NCBI RefSeq assembly: GCF_910592395.1
Contig: NC_088319.1
Span: 4,960,001-5,024,000, forward strand
Source: Lineus longissimus
Taxonomy: Eukaryota; Nemertea; Pilidiophora; Heteronemertea; Lineidae
Reading direction: 5' to 3'
Length of the DNA stretch: 64,000 bases
Shown here: positions 2-23,907 of the stretch, one piece after another
Layout of the letters: each line of letters begins with the position of its first letter
Position numbering within the stretch: position 1 is the stretch's first letter
The notes under the pieces: generated by a model
The model's database searches: none
Told to the model about the DNA's origin: nothing
Seen by the model: the letters and a program-made list of their open reading frames with translations, nothing else
Program-made: the position numbers and the translations under genes

Positions 2-1172
2 GCCATGATGTCATGTGACCGCTTAATTGCTGTGAGATTTCCATTGGCAGCGCGCCGCCTATGCGATCCAGCTAGAACTAAACGAATAGTAGTAGTCAGT
101 TTTATCGTCATTACTGTTCTGAACTTAAATTTTTTCTTTACCTATCAGTACGTTAAGGATGAAACTACAGGTATGTGTGACTTAAGAAATTGTTGCGGAA
201 CTGGCTTTCTTTCGTCACTCGGATTGATATAGAAAATGCTGGCCAAAACACGAAGCGTCCGCAAACAGTTTTAAACGTACTAGTGTACTTTGAGATCTAT
301 CCTAGTTATCATGATCAAAAGAAAAACTAAACGGACCAACGGCAAGGTGTTTATTTTTATTCTAAAATGGCTCAGGATCAACCTTTGCCTTCAAATTAAA
401 ACCAAGGGGTCCTTTCGCTGCGATACTTTGCTTTAGAAAACCCCACTCTGCCTCAATCGGATCAACTCTCCAATTTACAAGTTACGGCTGGTACATTCAT
501 TTCAAAGAACAGACTAACAGATACCACAGAAAATAGCAAATTCACGACATGGAAAACTTTCAACATATCTTACCACCCGTAACTCTATATCCAGGAGTTT
601 TGTGGCTGTTTATAATGGTTTATAGAAATGATCTGCAGTTTGTACCTCCATATTTTTCAGGATCCGATATATTAATTATATTGGTTCCGAATCAGCCTGC
701 CATCGAAGTCCTCACCAGTACCTTTTACATTGTGTTTGGAACATTCCTGCCTTTTACCATCATCTCAATCTGCAACATTGCAATATTAATCACAGTAAAA
801 CAGGCCTCTAAACAACGGCTGAAGTTGGACCAGTCCGGGAACCCAAGTTCAAAGGATCGTCACCAGAGGGATACAGCGCATTTAACCCGGATGTTGATCT
901 TCATTTCTGCAGGTTATGTTGTGACGACACTTCCGCTCCGGATGCATTATTTTGTTGTAGAAATACCGGATGTTGCGGCAAAGTACGATATGAGCGACCC
1001 CTATTGGAATCTGAGGTATACACTTGAGAATCTAACAATCGCCATTATTTGGGCAAGTAATCATGCCATTAATTTTTACCTTTACGTGGTGGCTGGTGGG
1101 AGGAAATTTCGACAAGACATCAGAGAGGTTTCACGAAAGTTGGCATGTTGCTGTCGGATGAAAACACGTTGA
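2..1172 (+). CDS. Class A (rhodopsin-like) GPCR, 3' part, two exons
   Basis: Seven-transmembrane receptor whose beginning lies before the window. Exon one (2-170) carries the end of TM3 with a DRY-type motif written CDRLIAV, then basic loop residues and TM4. A donor GTATGT follows at 171. The acceptor TTTTTCAG ends at 660 and exon two (661-1172) resumes in matching phase (1 nt + 2 nt). Exon two encodes TM5 (FGTFLPFTIISICNIAILI), a basic third loop, TM6, TM7 with NHAINFYLYVV in place of NPxxY, and a CCC-containing tail that could be palmitoylated. The layout fits invertebrate peptide-type receptors, but I cannot name a ligand. The phase match makes the join convincing. A longer open frame from 549 includes intron sequence and is not the exon start. 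Confidence 0.85.
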
Positions 1173-10100: not shown

Positions 10101-12222
10101 CCTTGATGGCTGTGATTGCCCTTGGACCAAAAAATCACCTTCACTTTTATTTGGCTAGATCTTAAAATCCTATTGTGACCAGAACTCCTTCGAAAAGAAG
10201 TGAATGCCAATTTCAAGGGGGGGGGGGGGCTATGTTCTTTGTTTTCCAGAGAATAGCCTCCTAAGAAATGGACATTCGCTTAATCGTGAAGGAGTTCTGA
10301 TTGCTTTAGGTTTTCAAGTTCTTGAAAAAAATAGTAGCGCCTATGGTCAACTCTCAATAAGATAGCATCAATTTATAAAGACGCCAATAGTCTAGTACAG
10401 AGTGTAGATTTGCAGATTCTGTTCATTAGCAGTGTATAATGTACAAGTGAGTAGTGATAGCCATGCGTACAATGCTTACATTTCCTCTACCCCTCCCCCA
10501 CTAGGTGAAGATACACAACCTGGGCCGGTTATGAGAATGATCCTAAACAGGATTCTGTTAAAGGTAAGCAATTGTCTTTTTTTACCATGGACTAGTACTG
10601 TTTTTTACCATTGACTAGTACTGTACCCACCAAAACCATGATAACGCACGTAGACTCTCGTCGTCCAAGTCCGCCAATTTCATCCGAGTTTTACTTTCTT
10701 GAATGAATTTACACACCCTTTTTTTAAAAGGATATGAAGTGAAAGTTGAAAGATAGAAATTATAAAATACAAAACGGAGAACCCCTGGTGTCCAGTATCC
10801 TGCAAACTGACGCCCTTTGGTCAATATTGTTTCAGAAGTGATTTACGACGATACAAATCTGACCAAGATGCAAAGTGGCGAAGAAGCTGCTCGGAAAGTC
10901 GAAGGTCAGTGAATGTCATGCATCTTTCATGTAATTTCAATCATTATCTTATTTGGCACTGAACATACCCACCCCCCCCCCCCTGCATATTCAACGGTGG
11001 ATCCGGAACAGCAGAATTGTCAAGTTTCAATACAGGCGATACTGTAGACACTAATTTATTGCATCAGCCTTAAACGCAGAAGTAAATACCTCATAAAATC
11101 TTCAACAGACGTTCCTCATGATTTCCAATATGGCTACAAGATTTGACTGCTCTTTCAGATATTTCAATCGAAGATTTCAAACTGAGGCTCCTATCAGAAT
11201 ACGTTTTACTCCTACTATTCTGCTTTTATTGTCTGGTCCGTGTGTATCATCGGTTGATCCTGTACTTCTCAACATGTGCCATTTGGACAGCCCACCTGCT
11301 TGACTACAACAGAGTGTTTCAACAACAGAGTCGCAACAACGTCTATAACGTCACAACGTCATTGACAAACCATCCCTGAGTCATGATGTCATTCAAACTG
11401 TGAACTTCGAACAAGACAGATGCAAGTCGACCCCAGCCACCCTGATGAAGCCTAGAGGGGCAGAAACGCGCGTCGGTGGAGCAACACAACAGCCCAACAA
11501 TAGGGACCGATGGACATTGTTGTAAACTACAGTGACGGTATCCAGTTTTACTTCTAAGTTCTACTATTCCTATCAGAATACGTGACAGAATCAACTTATG
11601 AACGACTAGCTAAGAACGGGCTCAACGAGGCAAGGTTCTTCGTAATATCACAAAGAGAAGACATCAAGAAGATGCATATCAAGCCCTTGGCTCAGGAGGC
11701 CTTGTTACGCAAATTGGTGAAGGATATCAATGAGACCAGGCAGAGTACGAGTGAGAGCAGTGAAGGAAAGAAACCTGGAGGTCCCACAGGCAAGTACCAC
11801 TATCAGGCGTGTAAACGTCAGTCTGGGTTGTTGTATTGAGGGCGGTCATGGCAAGCATAACTAAATGTGCGCAAGGTTTCAGCGTTTTGCCTACGCTTAC
11901 TAATGTAAGTCCTGATGCGATACAGGAGCTTATTCAAATAGTTGCATCACTGGTTCATTGAGGTTTCAATTTCATATGAAGGCGGAGGTTAAACTTTGAA
12001 ATTGATACCGAAATTCGTTTTATTCCCTGCGGGTTCTGTGTCAGATCTTGGTGGTTTGTATTCGATCGCTGTTTGATCGGTGTATGCCCGATCATCCTTT
12101 AGAATGATAAACTCAAATTGATAACGTTCTTTACTTCATGACTGTTTTTCGCTGAAGAAGAAAACCCGTATGATGAAATGGAAAATCAATATGCCGCCTT
12201 GAACATCACGGTAAGACGATGA
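3783..12222 (+). CDS. Immunoglobulin/fibronectin-III transmembrane receptor gene, multi-exon, possibly decaying
   Basis: Exons in order: Ig 3783-4112, Ig 5832-6176, Ig 6594-6830, Ig 7657-7925, FN3 8246-8535, linker 8591-8744 (tentative), FN3 plus membrane segment 8909-9336, tail exons 9869-9961, 10505-10563, 10836-10904, 11159-11789 (interrupted) and 12158-12222. Most introns are phase 1, as expected for shuffled Ig domains. The tail has tyrosine motifs typical of SH2 docking (STYERL fits the ITIM consensus; YDEM fits YxxM) and a SAM-like helical stretch. It is probably a cell-surface adhesion or signalling receptor; no ortholog can be named. Odd points are frame breaks near 7657, 9212 and 10530 and an insertion at 11205-11567, so this copy may be a pseudogene or the assembly may hold indels. 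The first exon and signal peptide were not found. Confidence 0.75.
5507..5831 (+). pseudogene. Two truncated tandem copies of an Ig half-exon
   Basis: The segment starting at 5507 (after CCACTTCCAG) and the one at 5660 (after CCCTTTCCAG) repeat the first half of the intact Ig exon at 5832, together with its upstream intron (CTGTGACTC.TCTGTCCCTTTCCAG). Each copy runs only to about GTGAATGACTT and then stops resembling the exon. The second copy has frame-breaking changes (for example TATAGAGG). Unit length is about 150-170 bp. They are relics of partial exon duplication and should not add a usable domain. Confidence 0.8.
5832..6176 (+). CDS. Ig-domain exon 2 of the receptor (intact)
   Basis: A phase 1-1 exon of 345 nt from acceptor CCCTTTCCAG to donor GTAAAG. 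Ig landmarks are TLNCYIP, VNWLKKD and DFAYWICQD. Two extra cysteines (KGCRAP, SNCRPP) could form an additional intradomain bond. Its first half is the source of the two degenerate upstream copies. Confidence 0.87.
6594..6830 (+). CDS. Ig-domain exon 3 (I-set-like)
   Basis: A 237-nt phase 1-1 exon from TTTTTTTCAG to GTAAGT. It shows LKCVASPPG, YDWYKDG and AGVYKCVARNDVGS, a compact I-set-like Ig domain of about 79 residues. It is the cleanest domain of the gene. Confidence 0.88.
7085..7268 (+). pseudogene. Degenerate Ig exon remnant
   Basis: The frame TLTCEARGGNPTSYTYIWHY ... REYRCRAVYY has both Ig cysteines and the tryptophan, but it lacks the A-strand region, has no convincing acceptor just upstream, and ends at TGA (7266-7268) without a donor. 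Phase-1 neighbours at 6830 and 7657 suggest it is skipped. It is probably a decayed domain copy. Confidence 0.6.
7326..7382. repeat. Short tandem repeat, about 24 bp x 2.5
   Basis: TCTTCTGATGTCTAGT(C/A)AAACTA occurs twice in full and a third time in part, inside an intron of the receptor gene. Confidence 0.8.
7657..7925 (+). CDS. Ig-domain exon 4 of the receptor
   Basis: The coding frame is the one giving ANPRPTNVTWYHPNHKM ... TPDYGNYTVKVTNSVG, with several N-glycosylation sequons (NVT, NGT, NYT). The donor GTATGA after LRP is phase 1. From the TTGCAG acceptor the same frame would need phase 2, at odds with the phase-1 neighbours, so there is either a one-base lesion near the exon start or a different acceptor (GACCAG at 7697-7702 would fit). 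Canonical cysteines are absent, as in some divergent Ig domains. Confidence 0.65.
8246..8535 (+). CDS. Fibronectin type III exon 1 of the receptor
   Basis: From acceptor TTGTTCTAG to donor GTATCG. It encodes an FN3 fold starting GPPRIPCC, with VTLTFRSNFNGGSQQQFTIG and the F/G region MYEFRVKADNEYGSSGYG. It enters in phase 1 and leaves in phase 0. Confidence 0.82.
8591..8744 (+). CDS. Possible linker exon of the receptor (tentative)
   Basis: A strong acceptor (CCTACCTTTCAG) and donor (TTTG|GTATGT) bound an open frame that enters in phase 0 and leaves in phase 1. That is exactly what is needed to join the FN3 exon ending at 8535 to the one starting at 8909. The 51 residues have no recognised fold. 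Confidence 0.4.
8909..9336 (+). CDS. Second FN3-like domain and transmembrane segment
   Basis: From acceptor TTGTTCTTTCAG. The FN3-like part reads SPSIPTFTITRKGLSVTVVF to KYTIHVTHATTTYVFYLNF. The membrane helix GMIAGVVVAVIIVVAV followed by a valine run and HRRN (about 9240-9321) is in a different frame, whose upstream codons contain a stop. One base gained or lost near 9212 would join them; no plausible intron is visible. The donor after CFA is GTAGGT at 9337. Confidence 0.65.
9869..9961 (+). CDS. Cytoplasmic tail exon a of the receptor
   Basis: A phase 1-1 exon of 93 nt from TTTTCCGTTTAG to GTAAAT. It is hydrophilic (RNKPEGSNRDDERTGTPQ, then SVFHVNRAFE) and follows the transmembrane segment. 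Confidence 0.75.
10505..10563 (+). CDS. Cytoplasmic tail exon b, one base short
   Basis: From acceptor CCCCCACTAG to donor GTAAGC. The exon is 59 nt; neighbours on both sides are phase 1-1 and would need 60. It starts in the frame EDTQPGPV. In the frame required by the next exon it ends as YENDPKQDSVK, which holds a tyrosine motif. A one-base loss near 10530-10532 explains both observations. Confidence 0.65.
10836..10904 (+). CDS. Cytoplasmic tail exon c with VIYDDT motif
   Basis: A phase 1-1 exon of 69 nt from TTGTTTCAG to GTCAGT. The peptide VIYDDTNLTKMQSGEEAARK has an acidic tyrosine motif suited to phosphorylation. Confidence 0.75.
11205..11567 (+). mobile_element. Hammerhead-ribozyme retroelement insertion (retrozyme/Penelope-type)
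   Basis: The insert lies between two copies of TCCTATCAGAATACGT (11189-11204 and 11568-11583), a long target-site duplication typical of target-primed reverse transcription. It has no long coding frame and contains a type I hammerhead motif with a very short stem III. The two ends share a related sequence: TTTTACTCCTACTATTC near 11205 and TTTTACTTCTAAGTTCTACTATTC ending at 11567. So the insert is slightly longer than one ~343-bp unit, as expected if copied from a circular or tandem template. Family knowledge: such ribozymes occur in Penelope-like elements and in non-autonomous animal retrozymes. Which of these it is cannot be settled here. Confidence 0.78.
11437..11479 (+). ncRNA. Type I hammerhead self-cleaving ribozyme with minimal stem III
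   Basis: Stem I is CCACC (11437-11441) pairing with GGTGG (11475-11479). The core CTGATGA is at 11442-11448. Stem II is GCCT/GGGC (11450-11453 with 11458-11461) with loop AGAG. GAAA is at 11463-11466. Stem III is ACG.CGT with a two-base loop, and the cleavage triplet GTC is at 11472-11474, so cleavage would follow 11474. All invariant core bases are present. The 10.1-11.1 position is A.A instead of the usual G-C pair, which may weaken activity. The short stem III is the hallmark of retroelement hammerheads that work best as dimers. Confidence 0.82.
12158..12222 (+). CDS. Terminal cytoplasmic exon with NPYDEM and QYAAL motifs
   Basis: Acceptor GTTTTTCGCTGAAG, entering in phase 1. The peptide ENPYDEMENQYAALNIT ends at TGA (12220-12222) after VRR. 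YDEM is a YxxM (PI3-kinase SH2) motif and QYAAL a second YxxL. An alternative donor GTAAGA at 12211 could extend the gene further. Confidence 0.68.
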
Positions 12223-18801: not shown

Positions 18802-20483
18802 GGGGACCTGTTTCATAAAGCTTAATGGAGTTCCTTTAGGCCTAAAGGCACGTTAACGACGTTCCTTAAAGGACCTAGCCGTTTCATAAAGCTTCCATTA
18901 ACTATCTAGGTTAATGGTGGCTTTAATGAGTGTTTCAGGTAGTGCCATTAACCTTCCTTTAGTTAACAGAATTCTTTTAAATCTGAAGGAGGTTCGGGGC
19001 TCCTTCAAGCTTCCTTTACGAGTTCTTTCTGCCTTCGGACGTCGAGCAGAGTGGACGTGCCATCATGCTGCGCTTAATACGAGAGCGTGAGAGACGCGCT
19101 ATTCGGCGGGAGAGGATATTCCGTGATCGATTTGACCCGATTGATTCGATGCGGGAGGATTTATTTATGAAACGATACAGATTTCCAAAAAACATTTGCA
19201 TCCATTTTTGTAGAGAGCTTTCGGCGGAGCTTCAGCATCCGACAGAGAGGAACCACACCCTTACTGTGTCAATGCAAGTATGCACTGCGTTGCGTTTTTT
19301 TGCCAGTGGCAATAACCAATCGAGTGTTGGGGACAATCATCACATTAGTGTGTCAAGCGCTTCACGATGCATAAATGCAGTTTCCTCTGCTTTGGCGGCT
19401 CGTATCGATCAACACGTGTACTTCCCGAACAATCTACAGCATGTGAAGGCGAAGTTTTTCGAAAAAACGGAATTTCCCCGCGTGATTGAGTCGATTGATG
19501 GGACCCACGTCCGCATCAGTAAACCAAGCATCAACGAAAATATATACGTGAATCGAAAGGGGTTTCACAGCATCAATGCGATGCTTGTGTGTGACTGGGA
19601 CATGATAATAAATAACTGTGTAGCCCGTTTTCCTGGTGGAACACACGACTCCTACGTCCTTCACAGTTCAGCACTAGGCCGAGAATTCGAGAGAAATCCA
19701 ACAAATGGTTGGCTGTTGGGAGATTCTGGGTATCCTTCCAAGAGATGGATTATGACACCTCTTGGTAATGCTCAAACACGACAGGAAAAACATTATCAAC
19801 GGAGGCAATGTAAAGCTAGGAGCATCATTGAGCGTTGCAATGGATTGTTGAAGCAACGCTTCAGATGCCTCAGGAAGGAGCTACATTACACTCCTGCAAA
19901 AGCATCTATGGTAATTCAGTCTTGCTGTGCTCTTCACAATGTTTCCGTCAGATACAAGTTGCCAGTCTTACATGATCCGGATAGTACAGACGATGATTCC
20001 TCTGATAGTGATGTTGGGGATGACGAGTTTCCAAATAAGAGAGGAATTGGTTGCAACATTATAGACTGATTCATGGGGATAAGGGACCATCTCAAAGTAA
20101 AAGTAAAGCCAAAAATATTTGTTTATTTATCAATGACCCCCCCCCCCCCTTTAAAAGTTTGGTGGTCATTTGCCAAAATGCTTGTCAAACACGCTGCACG
20201 AAGGGCCTATATCCAACATAATTACATCACATAACGAACCGGCAGAGTGCCTCTGAGCAGATATTACCGCATTTCAATTGAATTCCGACTAAGCGTTCGA
20301 GTAAATTTTAATGGGCGCTTGGTGGGTGAACCGTAGATTCACCTGCTAAAGGAAGGGCAGGCTAAAGGTACCTTCAAGCCAGTTTGTGAAACGCTCTGAT
20401 GTTGTTCCTTTAAATTTTAAATAACCCCTTCTTTTATGGTTCCTTAAATGAACTCCTTTAAAAAGTTTTATGAAACAGGCCCC
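18802..20483 (+). mobile_element. PIF/Harbinger DNA transposon, copy A
   Basis: The left end GGGGACCTGTTTCATAAAGC and the reverse complement of the right end GGGGCCTGTTTCATAAAACT form imperfect terminal inverted repeats around a HARBI1-like transposase gene. No Myb-like partner gene is present, so it would depend on another element for that protein. A clear three-base target duplication was not found. Confidence 0.8.
19065..20069 (+). CDS. Harbinger (HARBI1-like) DDE transposase, copy A
   Basis: A single-exon frame of 334 residues, close to the ~350 of HARBI1-family nucleases. The N-terminus has the basic RRERIFRDRFDP signature. The DDE_Tnp_4 fold shows the triad D145 (SIDGTH), D195 (PGGTHDSY) and E256 (SIIERCNG), plus GDSGYP and the C-terminal CCALHNV motif. 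It would cut and rejoin the element ends in the nucleus. Relative to copy B, a 31-bp deletion after DDEF replaces the C-terminus (NKRGIGCNIID instead of PPR). Beyond the intact triad there is no evidence of activity. Confidence 0.9.
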   Translation: MLRLIRERERRAIRRERIFRDRFDPIDSMREDLFMKRYRFPKNICIHFCRELSAELQHPTERNHTLTVSMQVCTALRFFASGNNQSSVGDNHHISVSSASRCINAVSSALAARIDQHVYFPNNLQHVKAKFFEKTEFPRVIESIDGTHVRISKPSINENIYVNRKGFHSINAMLVCDWDMIINNCVARFPGGTHDSYVLHSSALGREFERNPTNGWLLGDSGYPSKRWIMTPLGNAQTRQEKHYQRRQCKARSIIERCNGLLKQRFRCLRKELHYTPAKASMVIQSCCALHNVSVRYKLPVLHDPDSTDDDSSDSDVGDDEFPNKRGIGCNIID

Positions 20484-22726: not shown

Positions 22727-23907
22727 CTATTTCACTGTATCGATATCCAACGCAACACTGCGATCCTTGTTCCGATAACACAGACCACAGAATATCTTCT
22801 TACACTCAGCTCGATAGAGCGGCAACGAAATGGCATATATCAAGTAATTTGCACTAAAATTAATATAGTGGAAAGTGAACGCGCAATCAGTTGACACGCG
22901 GATTAGAGCGGCATAGAGAGGGTCCGCTCCTTCCCACTCGTTCATTTCACCGACGCTTTCCATTATCCCAAGGACACTGTAGGGCACCATTGCGATAACG
23001 TAAACAACAGAGACCAAAATGAGATTGAAGATAATTTTCACCTCATACTTTTGAAACGCTGTTTTTTCAGTGGACCAACGGCTTCATTAGTTCGCTGTAG
23101 GCCACACACAAGCACCACATTTAGTATCACCACGACTATGATGGGAATTATCTTATAAATTGCAAAATCGATCACAAATAATATTAGAAATTCCAAAAGT
23201 AGGAATGGACGAGGCCGACATTGGGTCACCTTCTCGCCTGAGTCATCTTCGATTTCGTAAAAATTAAATTGAATCGCAATAACTGCCCCCAAAGCGCAAG
23301 AAATGAGAAAGATACAAAATAAGACAATCCTTCGCTTTCGCGTCGTGAAAATAGTTGCGACTTTTAATGGTTTCCATATTGCTACGCACCGCTCAATGCA
23401 GAATGCTATGAGTGTCCAAATAGATACGATTCCAAATGTCTGGAATACGAACATGTTTAACTTACAACCGGCAGCTGATGCTGACTCTTCTATAAGTATC
23501 TTTCCTCCTGAAAATGCATAGATGCCCTCGTCAAGCCACACGTTGATGCCGACACACAGGTTGATGAAATCGTACACCGCCAGGGGTCAGAGGTAGGTTG
23601 AGGTCACAATATCTCGGCGCCGGAGCCGGTAGAATACAACAACAGAGAGCAGGTTACCAAAACACCCGGAGACGAGAATCACTGCGGCCACGTGAAAGAC
23701 ACCGTAATGAAGGACAACTGCTCTGAAGACTAGCAGAAAGCTCCCCGGTTCCTGGTGGCGGGTTGCCGGAGAACCATGGGTGGAGTTGGACGATTTGATT
23801 TCCTCTGCTATGGTATGATTCATGGATGATGTGTCAACCGTTGGTACAGGAACACTGTACACGCGATAGAAATCTTCATTGTAACCCATGTTGCTGACTT
23901 CACTCAT
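22727..23907 (-). pseudogene. Intronless class A GPCR pseudogene, copy A
   Basis: Read on the minus strand from ATG at 23907. An N-terminal region with N-glycosylation sequons (NHT, NST) leads to TM1 (SGCFGNLLSVVVF). The frame is stopped by TGA at 23587-23589 inside TM2 (STYL-stop-PLAVYDF). It resumes in the same frame through TM3 (AFCIERCVAIWKP, with ERC replacing DRY), TM4 and TM5. A second lesion near 23038-23041 shifts the frame by one base just before TM6 (KIIFNLILVSVVYVIAMVPY). TM7 has NYLIYAIS in place of NPxxY, and the tail ends at 22727. Full length would be about 393 residues. Both lesions are shared with copy B, so they predate the duplication. Confidence 0.85.

Follow-up and report, generated by a model that had tools for sequence, protein, structure and literature searches.

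A 342-bp hammerhead repeat family of Lineus longissimus, a probable non-autonomous Penelope-type minimal retrozyme

In the available part of PMC7229834, metazoan retrozymes without long terminal repeats (non-LTR retrozymes) are described as short non-coding tandem units (~170 to 400 nt) with a type I hammerhead ribozyme, a GC content below 50%, and target-site duplications (TSDs) of more than 4 bp; Penelope-like elements (PLEs) are named there only as strong candidates for moving them. Tandem copies from dimers upward, a canonical hammerhead with a loop 1-loop 2 contact, and abundant RNA in linear and circular form are further marks of such retrozymes. According to the available portion of a 2020 review, no motif in retrozyme repeats gives away the helper that moves them (PMC7761336). 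PLEs themselves, which have a pseudo-long terminal repeat (pLTR) with a tail, display a hammerhead adjacent to the ATG, an internal start at about +112 to +118, tandem or head-to-head copies, TSDs, and solo pLTRs (available text of PMC11167929 and PMC3846280). Here, we describe a repeat family with a 342-bp unit in the genome (391 Mb) of the ribbon worm Lineus longissimus. One copy interrupts an exon in the 64,000-nt stretch of contig NC_088319.1 (assembly GCF_910592395.1, positions 4,960,001 to 5,024,000 of the forward strand) that was analyzed and is referred to as the window; coordinates without a contig or locus name are those of the window. Based on its sequence features, the family is, with a probability of roughly 0.78, a non-autonomous Penelope-type minimal retrozyme, i.e., in effect a PLE of which only the terminal repeat with its hammerhead is left and which is copied in trans by a Penelope-type reverse transcriptase (RT)/endonuclease.

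The family shares with metazoan retrozymes a short non-coding repeat with a type I hammerhead (the match to the model being below threshold), tandem copies, a GC content of less than 50% (46.8% for the unit), and TSDs longer than 4 bp. It differs from them by a minimal hammerhead lacking stem-loop III, by a clear and fixed 3′ end, and by evidence pointing toward PLE-type insertion. Like PLEs, it has a minimal hammerhead in a terminal repeat near a start codon, tandem and head-to-head copies, a fixed internal position at which reverse transcription would start, and TSDs. Unlike PLEs, it has no open reading frame (ORF) for RT and endonuclease, the frame opened by the hammerhead ATG comprising 26 codons, and the whole element is repeat, with up to ~8 units and nothing between them. 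The hammerheads of schistosome W elements are canonical, unlike that of the 342-bp family. Compared by description, W elements are likewise satellite-like hammerhead repeats of an invertebrate, with a possible TSD for one of them (available text of PMC8490949). This kind of element is known. What makes the family, to our knowledge, a new variant is that it joins four features: an element made purely of terminal repeat, inverted insertions with two haplotypes, nick preferences that resemble each other on the two strands, and copies that begin at the ribozyme cut.

In the window, the element is a 363-bp insert (11205..11567, + strand; ~1.06 unit) located between two exact copies of the direct repeat TCCTATCAGAATACGT (11189..11204 and 11568..11583, + strand). 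It splits an exon (11159..11789, + strand; splice sites inferred by eye) forming the tail exon of an immunoglobulin (Ig)-domain receptor-like gene. The joined exon flanks form a single reading frame, and translation with the insert encounters a stop codon inside it. The peptide encoded by the split exon has 16 matches in the genome, including six on the same contig that are 77 to 86% identical, full length, and devoid of stop codons. The three paralogous exons that were read are all uninterrupted at the insertion point and contain the equivalent of the 16-mer once, indicating that the duplication came with the insertion. One copy of the element breaks a receptor-tail exon. The initial annotation, which had proposed a retroelement inserted in a coding exon as a 363-bp segment with a 16-bp target duplication, is supported, and the 16-mer equivalent is not duplicated at the empty sites of the paralogues. 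The initial ~18 nt of the unit recur imperfectly at both ends of the insert. The 3′ end (11545..11567, + strand; family end CCAGTTTTACTTCTACTATTC), at which reverse transcription would have started, carries 7 extra nucleotides (AGTTCTA) relative to that family end.

The first genome search, in which 40 of 143 candidate places were scored, returned 122 matches, mostly 95 to 98% identical, in units of 342 bp rather than the ~343 bp initially reported. Copies of the element elsewhere in the genome, on which the initial proposal depended, were also found with a hammerhead pattern, which had 123 matches genome-wide for none with the reversed control; an identical 33-mer hammerhead was present in 94 among the 100 matches listed (of 123). 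Divergence between different loci was 2.09%. The family is young and was probably recently active in the L. longissimus genome. The copy in the window carries the subfamily variants 19T (found in 11 of the 21 first loci) and 65T, together with seven private changes in 354 bp. This insertion, which had been regarded as fresh, is therefore recent but not among the youngest, since several relatives have only 0 to 3 changes.

A total of 64 loci were read: 46 had been selected for similarity or for containing the hammerhead, 17 had been selected with two downstream patterns, and one more was read at both ends. The 3′ end was located at unit position 354 to 360 in 45 of 46, 14 of 17, and 1 of 1 of these loci, respectively (60 of 64), with GTTTTACTTCTACTATTC as the family 3′ end string, and the 5′ ends were scattered. 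It is this fixed 3′ end, 82 to 88 nt beyond the hammerhead cut, that mainly delimits the family, and not the cut site itself. TSDs of 10 to 18 bp were detected in 35 of 46, 8 of 17, and 1 of 1 loci (44 of 64), and 420 mismatched pairs of flanks, used as a control under one set of search settings, reached at most 9 bp; for L068, L096, L100, and L111, the stretch fetched was too short for a TSD to be judged. Four arrays of 2.6 to 2.8 units (L024, L025, L028, and L030) are each contained within one TSD pair, indicating that they arrived whole. In the first set, where 35 targets had a duplication, TG was present at positions −4 and −3 in 13 left and 9 right half-sites, the latter read as the reverse complement, for 2.1 expected. 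The weight matrix of each half-site peaked on the other side at or next to the nick, and the target motif of the family is TGKS. These preferences suggest that one kind of endonuclease may act on both strands. Separately, the 5′ truncations of the 37 non-inverted loci cluster at unit positions 95 to 98, 165 to 168, and 205 to 207 (4, 4, and 3 loci, respectively), perhaps reflecting RT pause sites or microhomology.

An inverted arm was present in 9 of the 46 loci of the first set. In six of the 46 (L026, L038, L039, L086, L087, and L088), both outer ends were at positions 354 to 360, and each of these insertions was bordered by one pair of 14- to 18-bp TSDs. The two arms of L026, L038, L087, and L088 carry different subfamily haplotypes, indicating that two RNAs were copied. 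Divergence amounted to 2.19% between opposite arms and 2.09% between different loci, versus 0.98% between units of one arm. Tandem arrays reach ~8 units (L021), the copy in the window being a single unit. Within arrays, variant comparisons involving 49 full units were concordant in 17 and discordant in 17 cases, versus 4.4 and 52 for 2,000 permutations, none of which was as extreme, a pattern that fits a putative circular, or otherwise uniform, template for each array.

The hammerhead of the window (11437..11479, + strand), read directly as a motif, consists of the stem I strand CCACC (11437-11441) and its partner GGTGG (11475-11479), the core CTGATGA (11442-11448), stem II GCCT/GGGC (11450-11453/11458-11461), GAAA (11463-11466), stem III ACGCGCGT (11466-11473), and GTC (11472-11474), with a predicted cut between 11474 and 11475. 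All parts of the complete type I layout of the initial annotation are in place, but they form a minimal hammerhead of the kind reported from Penelope elements and not the canonical type I ribozyme of retrozymes: judged by sequence, stem-loop III is missing, stem I is short and open, and the loop 1-loop 2 contact of canonical hammerheads would be lacking. By itself, the loose core is unexceptional (0.45 occurrences expected in one shuffled window), and the strict motif, which requires stem I of 5 bp, stem II, and a palindrome as stem III, has a single match in the window and none in 10 Mb of simulated sequence. The covariance-model check was only partly favorable, since Rfam RF00163 (Hammerhead_1) matched over its full length in an 81-bp stretch (model positions 1-45 of 45 at 11436-11480, E = 0.031) but with a score of 17.8 bits for a curated cut-off of 34. 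The window had no Rfam match at the gathering cut-off, and no hammerhead was retrieved from a 1.2-kb stretch at E ≤ 10. Two copies in L086 obtained the same score as the window copy (17.8 bits), and L067, L074, L048, and L065 had no Rfam match in the same run.

Free folding did not support the hammerhead (z-score of 0.47), the minimum-energy fold of the monomer not being the catalytic one, and the 88 nt between the cut and the 3′ end were no better structured than shuffles (z of 0.19). Stem III is a perfect palindrome, which could pair between two RNAs to form a dimer hammerhead, and the energy of the two-strand fold was −38.7 kcal/mol versus −13.6 kcal/mol for one strand (−27.2 kcal/mol for twice one strand). 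In the available portion of PMC7761336, PLEs are reported to contain such minimal hammerheads, and small Penelope hammerheads are reported to cleave as dimers. The motif is a candidate for an active ribozyme that probably acts as a dimer via its palindromic stem III.

Copies devoid of the hammerhead were hidden by the early choice of loci, based on similarity or on the hammerhead. The sequence located just after the cut had 133 matches in the genome, and eight loci were taken among the 100 matches listed, those without a listed hammerhead nearby. Three of the eight (L098, L099, which has a TSD of 18 bp, and L102) start exactly at the predicted cut. A control pattern located further downstream had 142 matches; nine more isolated ones were read, which lowered the proportion of cut-site starts from 3 of 5 to 3 of 14 short ends. 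The first base of an array of 1.24 unit (C8:15731867) is also the base following the cut, with a TSD of 14 to 15 bp and ~3 extra bases at the junction. Altogether, 4 of the 19 5′ ends between positions 250 and 295 are at the cut, for 0.41 expected per position (P of about 0.0009), and 3 of 17 when two ends from the first genome search are excluded, leaving the short ends and the array ends of the first set (P = 0.006). Such starts would result if a cut RNA were copied from near position 360 as far as its 5′ end, where the RT would run off. They would then be traces, left in the genome, of cleavage by the hammerhead in the germ line, and we consider them to be supporting, not decisive, evidence for it. 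Copies reading through the cut imply that their templates were uncut or re-closed there, and, judging by the array of 1.24 unit, a linear RNA may serve as a template even when its inner hammerhead is uncut.

The Penelope protein of Anolis, studied in purified form, begins copying 111 to 118 nt into the ORF, the start of which is overlapped by a hammerhead that cuts 26 nt in. This enzyme, a predicted dimer, cuts both strands and extends both of them (PMC11167929). In the 342-bp unit, the hammerhead ATG occupies position 243 (11445 in the window); measured from it, the predicted cut comes at 30 nt and the 3′ end at +112 to +118, or at about +123 in the window copy, whose extra 7 nt shift it. The 26-codon frame that begins at this ATG inside the hammerhead core (11445..11525, + strand) resembles a Penelope ORF start (PMC11167929) and probably does not encode a functional protein. 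The question of which elements move animal retrozymes is testable with this family, which has Penelope-type features in its ends, its target sites, and its inverted copies.

The genome contains 50 matches to the GIY-YIG domain. We take many of these to be Penelope-type from their C-terminal motifs. At L043, an 885-amino-acid PLE-type ORF is located inside a head-to-head insertion with a 15-bp TSD. The PLE flanks at L048 and L065 contain minimal hammerheads with a palindromic stem III, the scan yielding 4 matches for 0.1 expected. A PLE would be the helper of the 342-bp family.

Several side observations concern these PLEs. The two arms of L043 end at different 3′ points, ~35 nt after the end of the ORF and ~680 nt later, like two RT start sites or the tail of Penelope elements. 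At ~625-665 of L065 (oriented), a hammerhead reads TTGAAAA where CTGANGA is expected, combining C3 to U and G8 to A, a paired change that would keep the 3-8 pair; similar strings are found by eye in L048, L053, and L057. At C3:12513811 and C14:4923653, GIY-YIG matches with identical scores lie in open frames of 2,369 amino acids, which are unusually long PLE-like or Terminon-like. No GIY-YIG match was seen, by eye, within 10 kb of the hammerheads for the 100 listed. Two hammerhead copies on C17 (2772090 and 2886266), separated by ~114 kb, each have a GIY-YIG match ~15 kb away with near-equal spacing, and these pairs are probably the result of a segmental duplication.

The mechanism that we propose for the family would involve RNA transcribed from tandem copies, with one hammerhead per 342 nt. 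Some hammerheads would cut, likely as a dimer via stem III, and others would remain uncut, or the ends of the RNA would be joined again to form a circle. Acting in trans, a Penelope-type RT/endonuclease dimer would introduce two similar nicks ~16 bp apart, and copying would begin internally, 82 to 88 nt downstream of the hammerhead cut. The RT would follow the template, whether linear or circular, over 0.2 to ~8 units, at times running off a cut end. One nick would usually prime; in some insertions both would, each on its own RNA, thereby generating head-to-head arms, and repair would produce the 10- to 18-bp duplications. A more specific version is that a dimeric Penelope-type complex holds two separate RNAs, circular or concatemeric, with both staggered nicks able to prime on a template of their own. 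Head-to-head copies would then be a record of target-primed copying on two strands from two templates, the hammerhead would shape these templates, and cut RNAs would leave run-off insertions (86 to 88 bp, or this length plus whole units) starting from the cut. We advance this version tentatively, its odds falling just short of even.

Several observations weigh against a Penelope-type mode of mobilization or against parts of it. The usual 3′ end is absent from L029, L100, L102, and L111, and a TSD of 10 bp is lacking in 20 of the 64 loci. Inverted arms stop at position 350 in L084, 284 in L085, and 195 in L089, and the same-arm divergence becomes 1.58%, nearer to the between-locus value, when averaged per array. 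When partial units are included, the array-variant comparisons are concordant in 29 and discordant in 38 cases (without permutation). The two full units of L091 differ at several diagnostic variants, indicating that the template of this array was not one circle. The set of cut-site starts was partly selected, and other 5′ positions recur (250, 250, and 251; 286 and 286). With respect to the helper, no sequence shared with the unit was found in 26 PLE stretches (best E of 1.4), covering roughly half of the 50 GIY-YIG matches and, in most cases, 1 kb of 3′ flank; the helper is therefore one that we infer and not one that was found. In the scan for hammerheads, L043 had no stem-bearing one, and the distance from cut to end seems by eye to be shorter in L048 and L065 than in the 342-bp family.

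The family might instead be akin to a short interspersed nuclear element (SINE) moved by a long interspersed nuclear element (LINE), with the hammerhead as a passenger and target-primed copying leaving the 10- to 18-bp duplications. TSD length and 5′ truncation suit the LINE machinery. However, there is no poly(A) tail among the 3′ ends read, a related motif is found at both nicks whereas the second nicks of LINEs are usually unspecific, and 6 of 46 loci have the usual 3′ end on each outer side, unlike LINE 5′ inversions. Since minimal hammerheads of such a kind are, in addition, reported from PLEs (available portion of PMC7761336), we consider mobilization by a LINE unlikely. The spread of a satellite-type tandem repeat by recombination or unequal crossing-over, without reverse transcription, would account for tandem 342-bp units, for the eight near-identical units of L021, in which no TSD was found, and for L029, which ends elsewhere and lacks a TSD of 10 bp. 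It is hardly credible for a family in which most arrays start 5′-truncated, stop at one fixed base, and lie within one TSD pair, and in which the window copy has empty-site paralogues.

Within the preferred Penelope-type reading, both the nature of the template and the origin of the head-to-head arms have competing explanations. The templates may be linear multimeric transcripts, at times trimmed by the hammerhead, and not circles, which is possible although we would bet against it. The mosaic L091 is in favor of such templates, as is the array at C8:15731867, which starts at the cut yet holds an uncut hammerhead, implying that a linear RNA of more than one unit was copied. A multimer transcribed from a uniform parent array would also yield concordant units, and Anolis hammerhead mutants insert normally in vitro (PMC11167929). 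On the other side, variants are shared within arrays and differ between arrays, for which a circle would be the simplest template, and L021 has eight units; a linear RNA could still produce both. For rotifer Penelope, which has solo repeats, inverted repeats, and 8- to 10-bp duplications, the authors favor self-priming on one template as the origin of the inverted copies, and inverted structures are common in PLEs (available text of PMC3846280). In the 342-bp family, the arms of L039 and L084 overlap too little to be compared, and those of L086 differ at only one shared variant. One template would give matching arms, whereas those of L026, L038, L087, and L088 differ in multi-variant haplotypes, making self-priming highly improbable. 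Changes acquired after insertion would hardly explain these differences, since the haplotypes recur at other loci. The question of how inverted Penelope copies form is also testable with this family, in which the subfamily difference between arms points to two RNAs and two nicks and away from self-priming.

The ORFs located upstream of the split exon, on the same strand, encode Ig domains and one weak FN3 match, and they would form one gene with this exon. By eye, the product of the split exon may have a SAM-like helical tail domain, for which Pfam gives only a weak DUF7826 match. The gene family to which the exon belongs (window 11159-11789; C12:3.50-3.69 Mb) is clustered on the same contig. 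Elsewhere in the window, a 334-amino-acid ORF (19065-20069, + strand) contains a DDE_Tnp_4 transposase domain (Pfam E of 5e-36), and we take it to be a copy of a PIF/Harbinger-type DNA transposon. An ORF at 549-1172 (+ strand) has a 7tm_1 match, and ORFs at 22727-23907 (− strand) resemble, by eye, another 7-transmembrane receptor.

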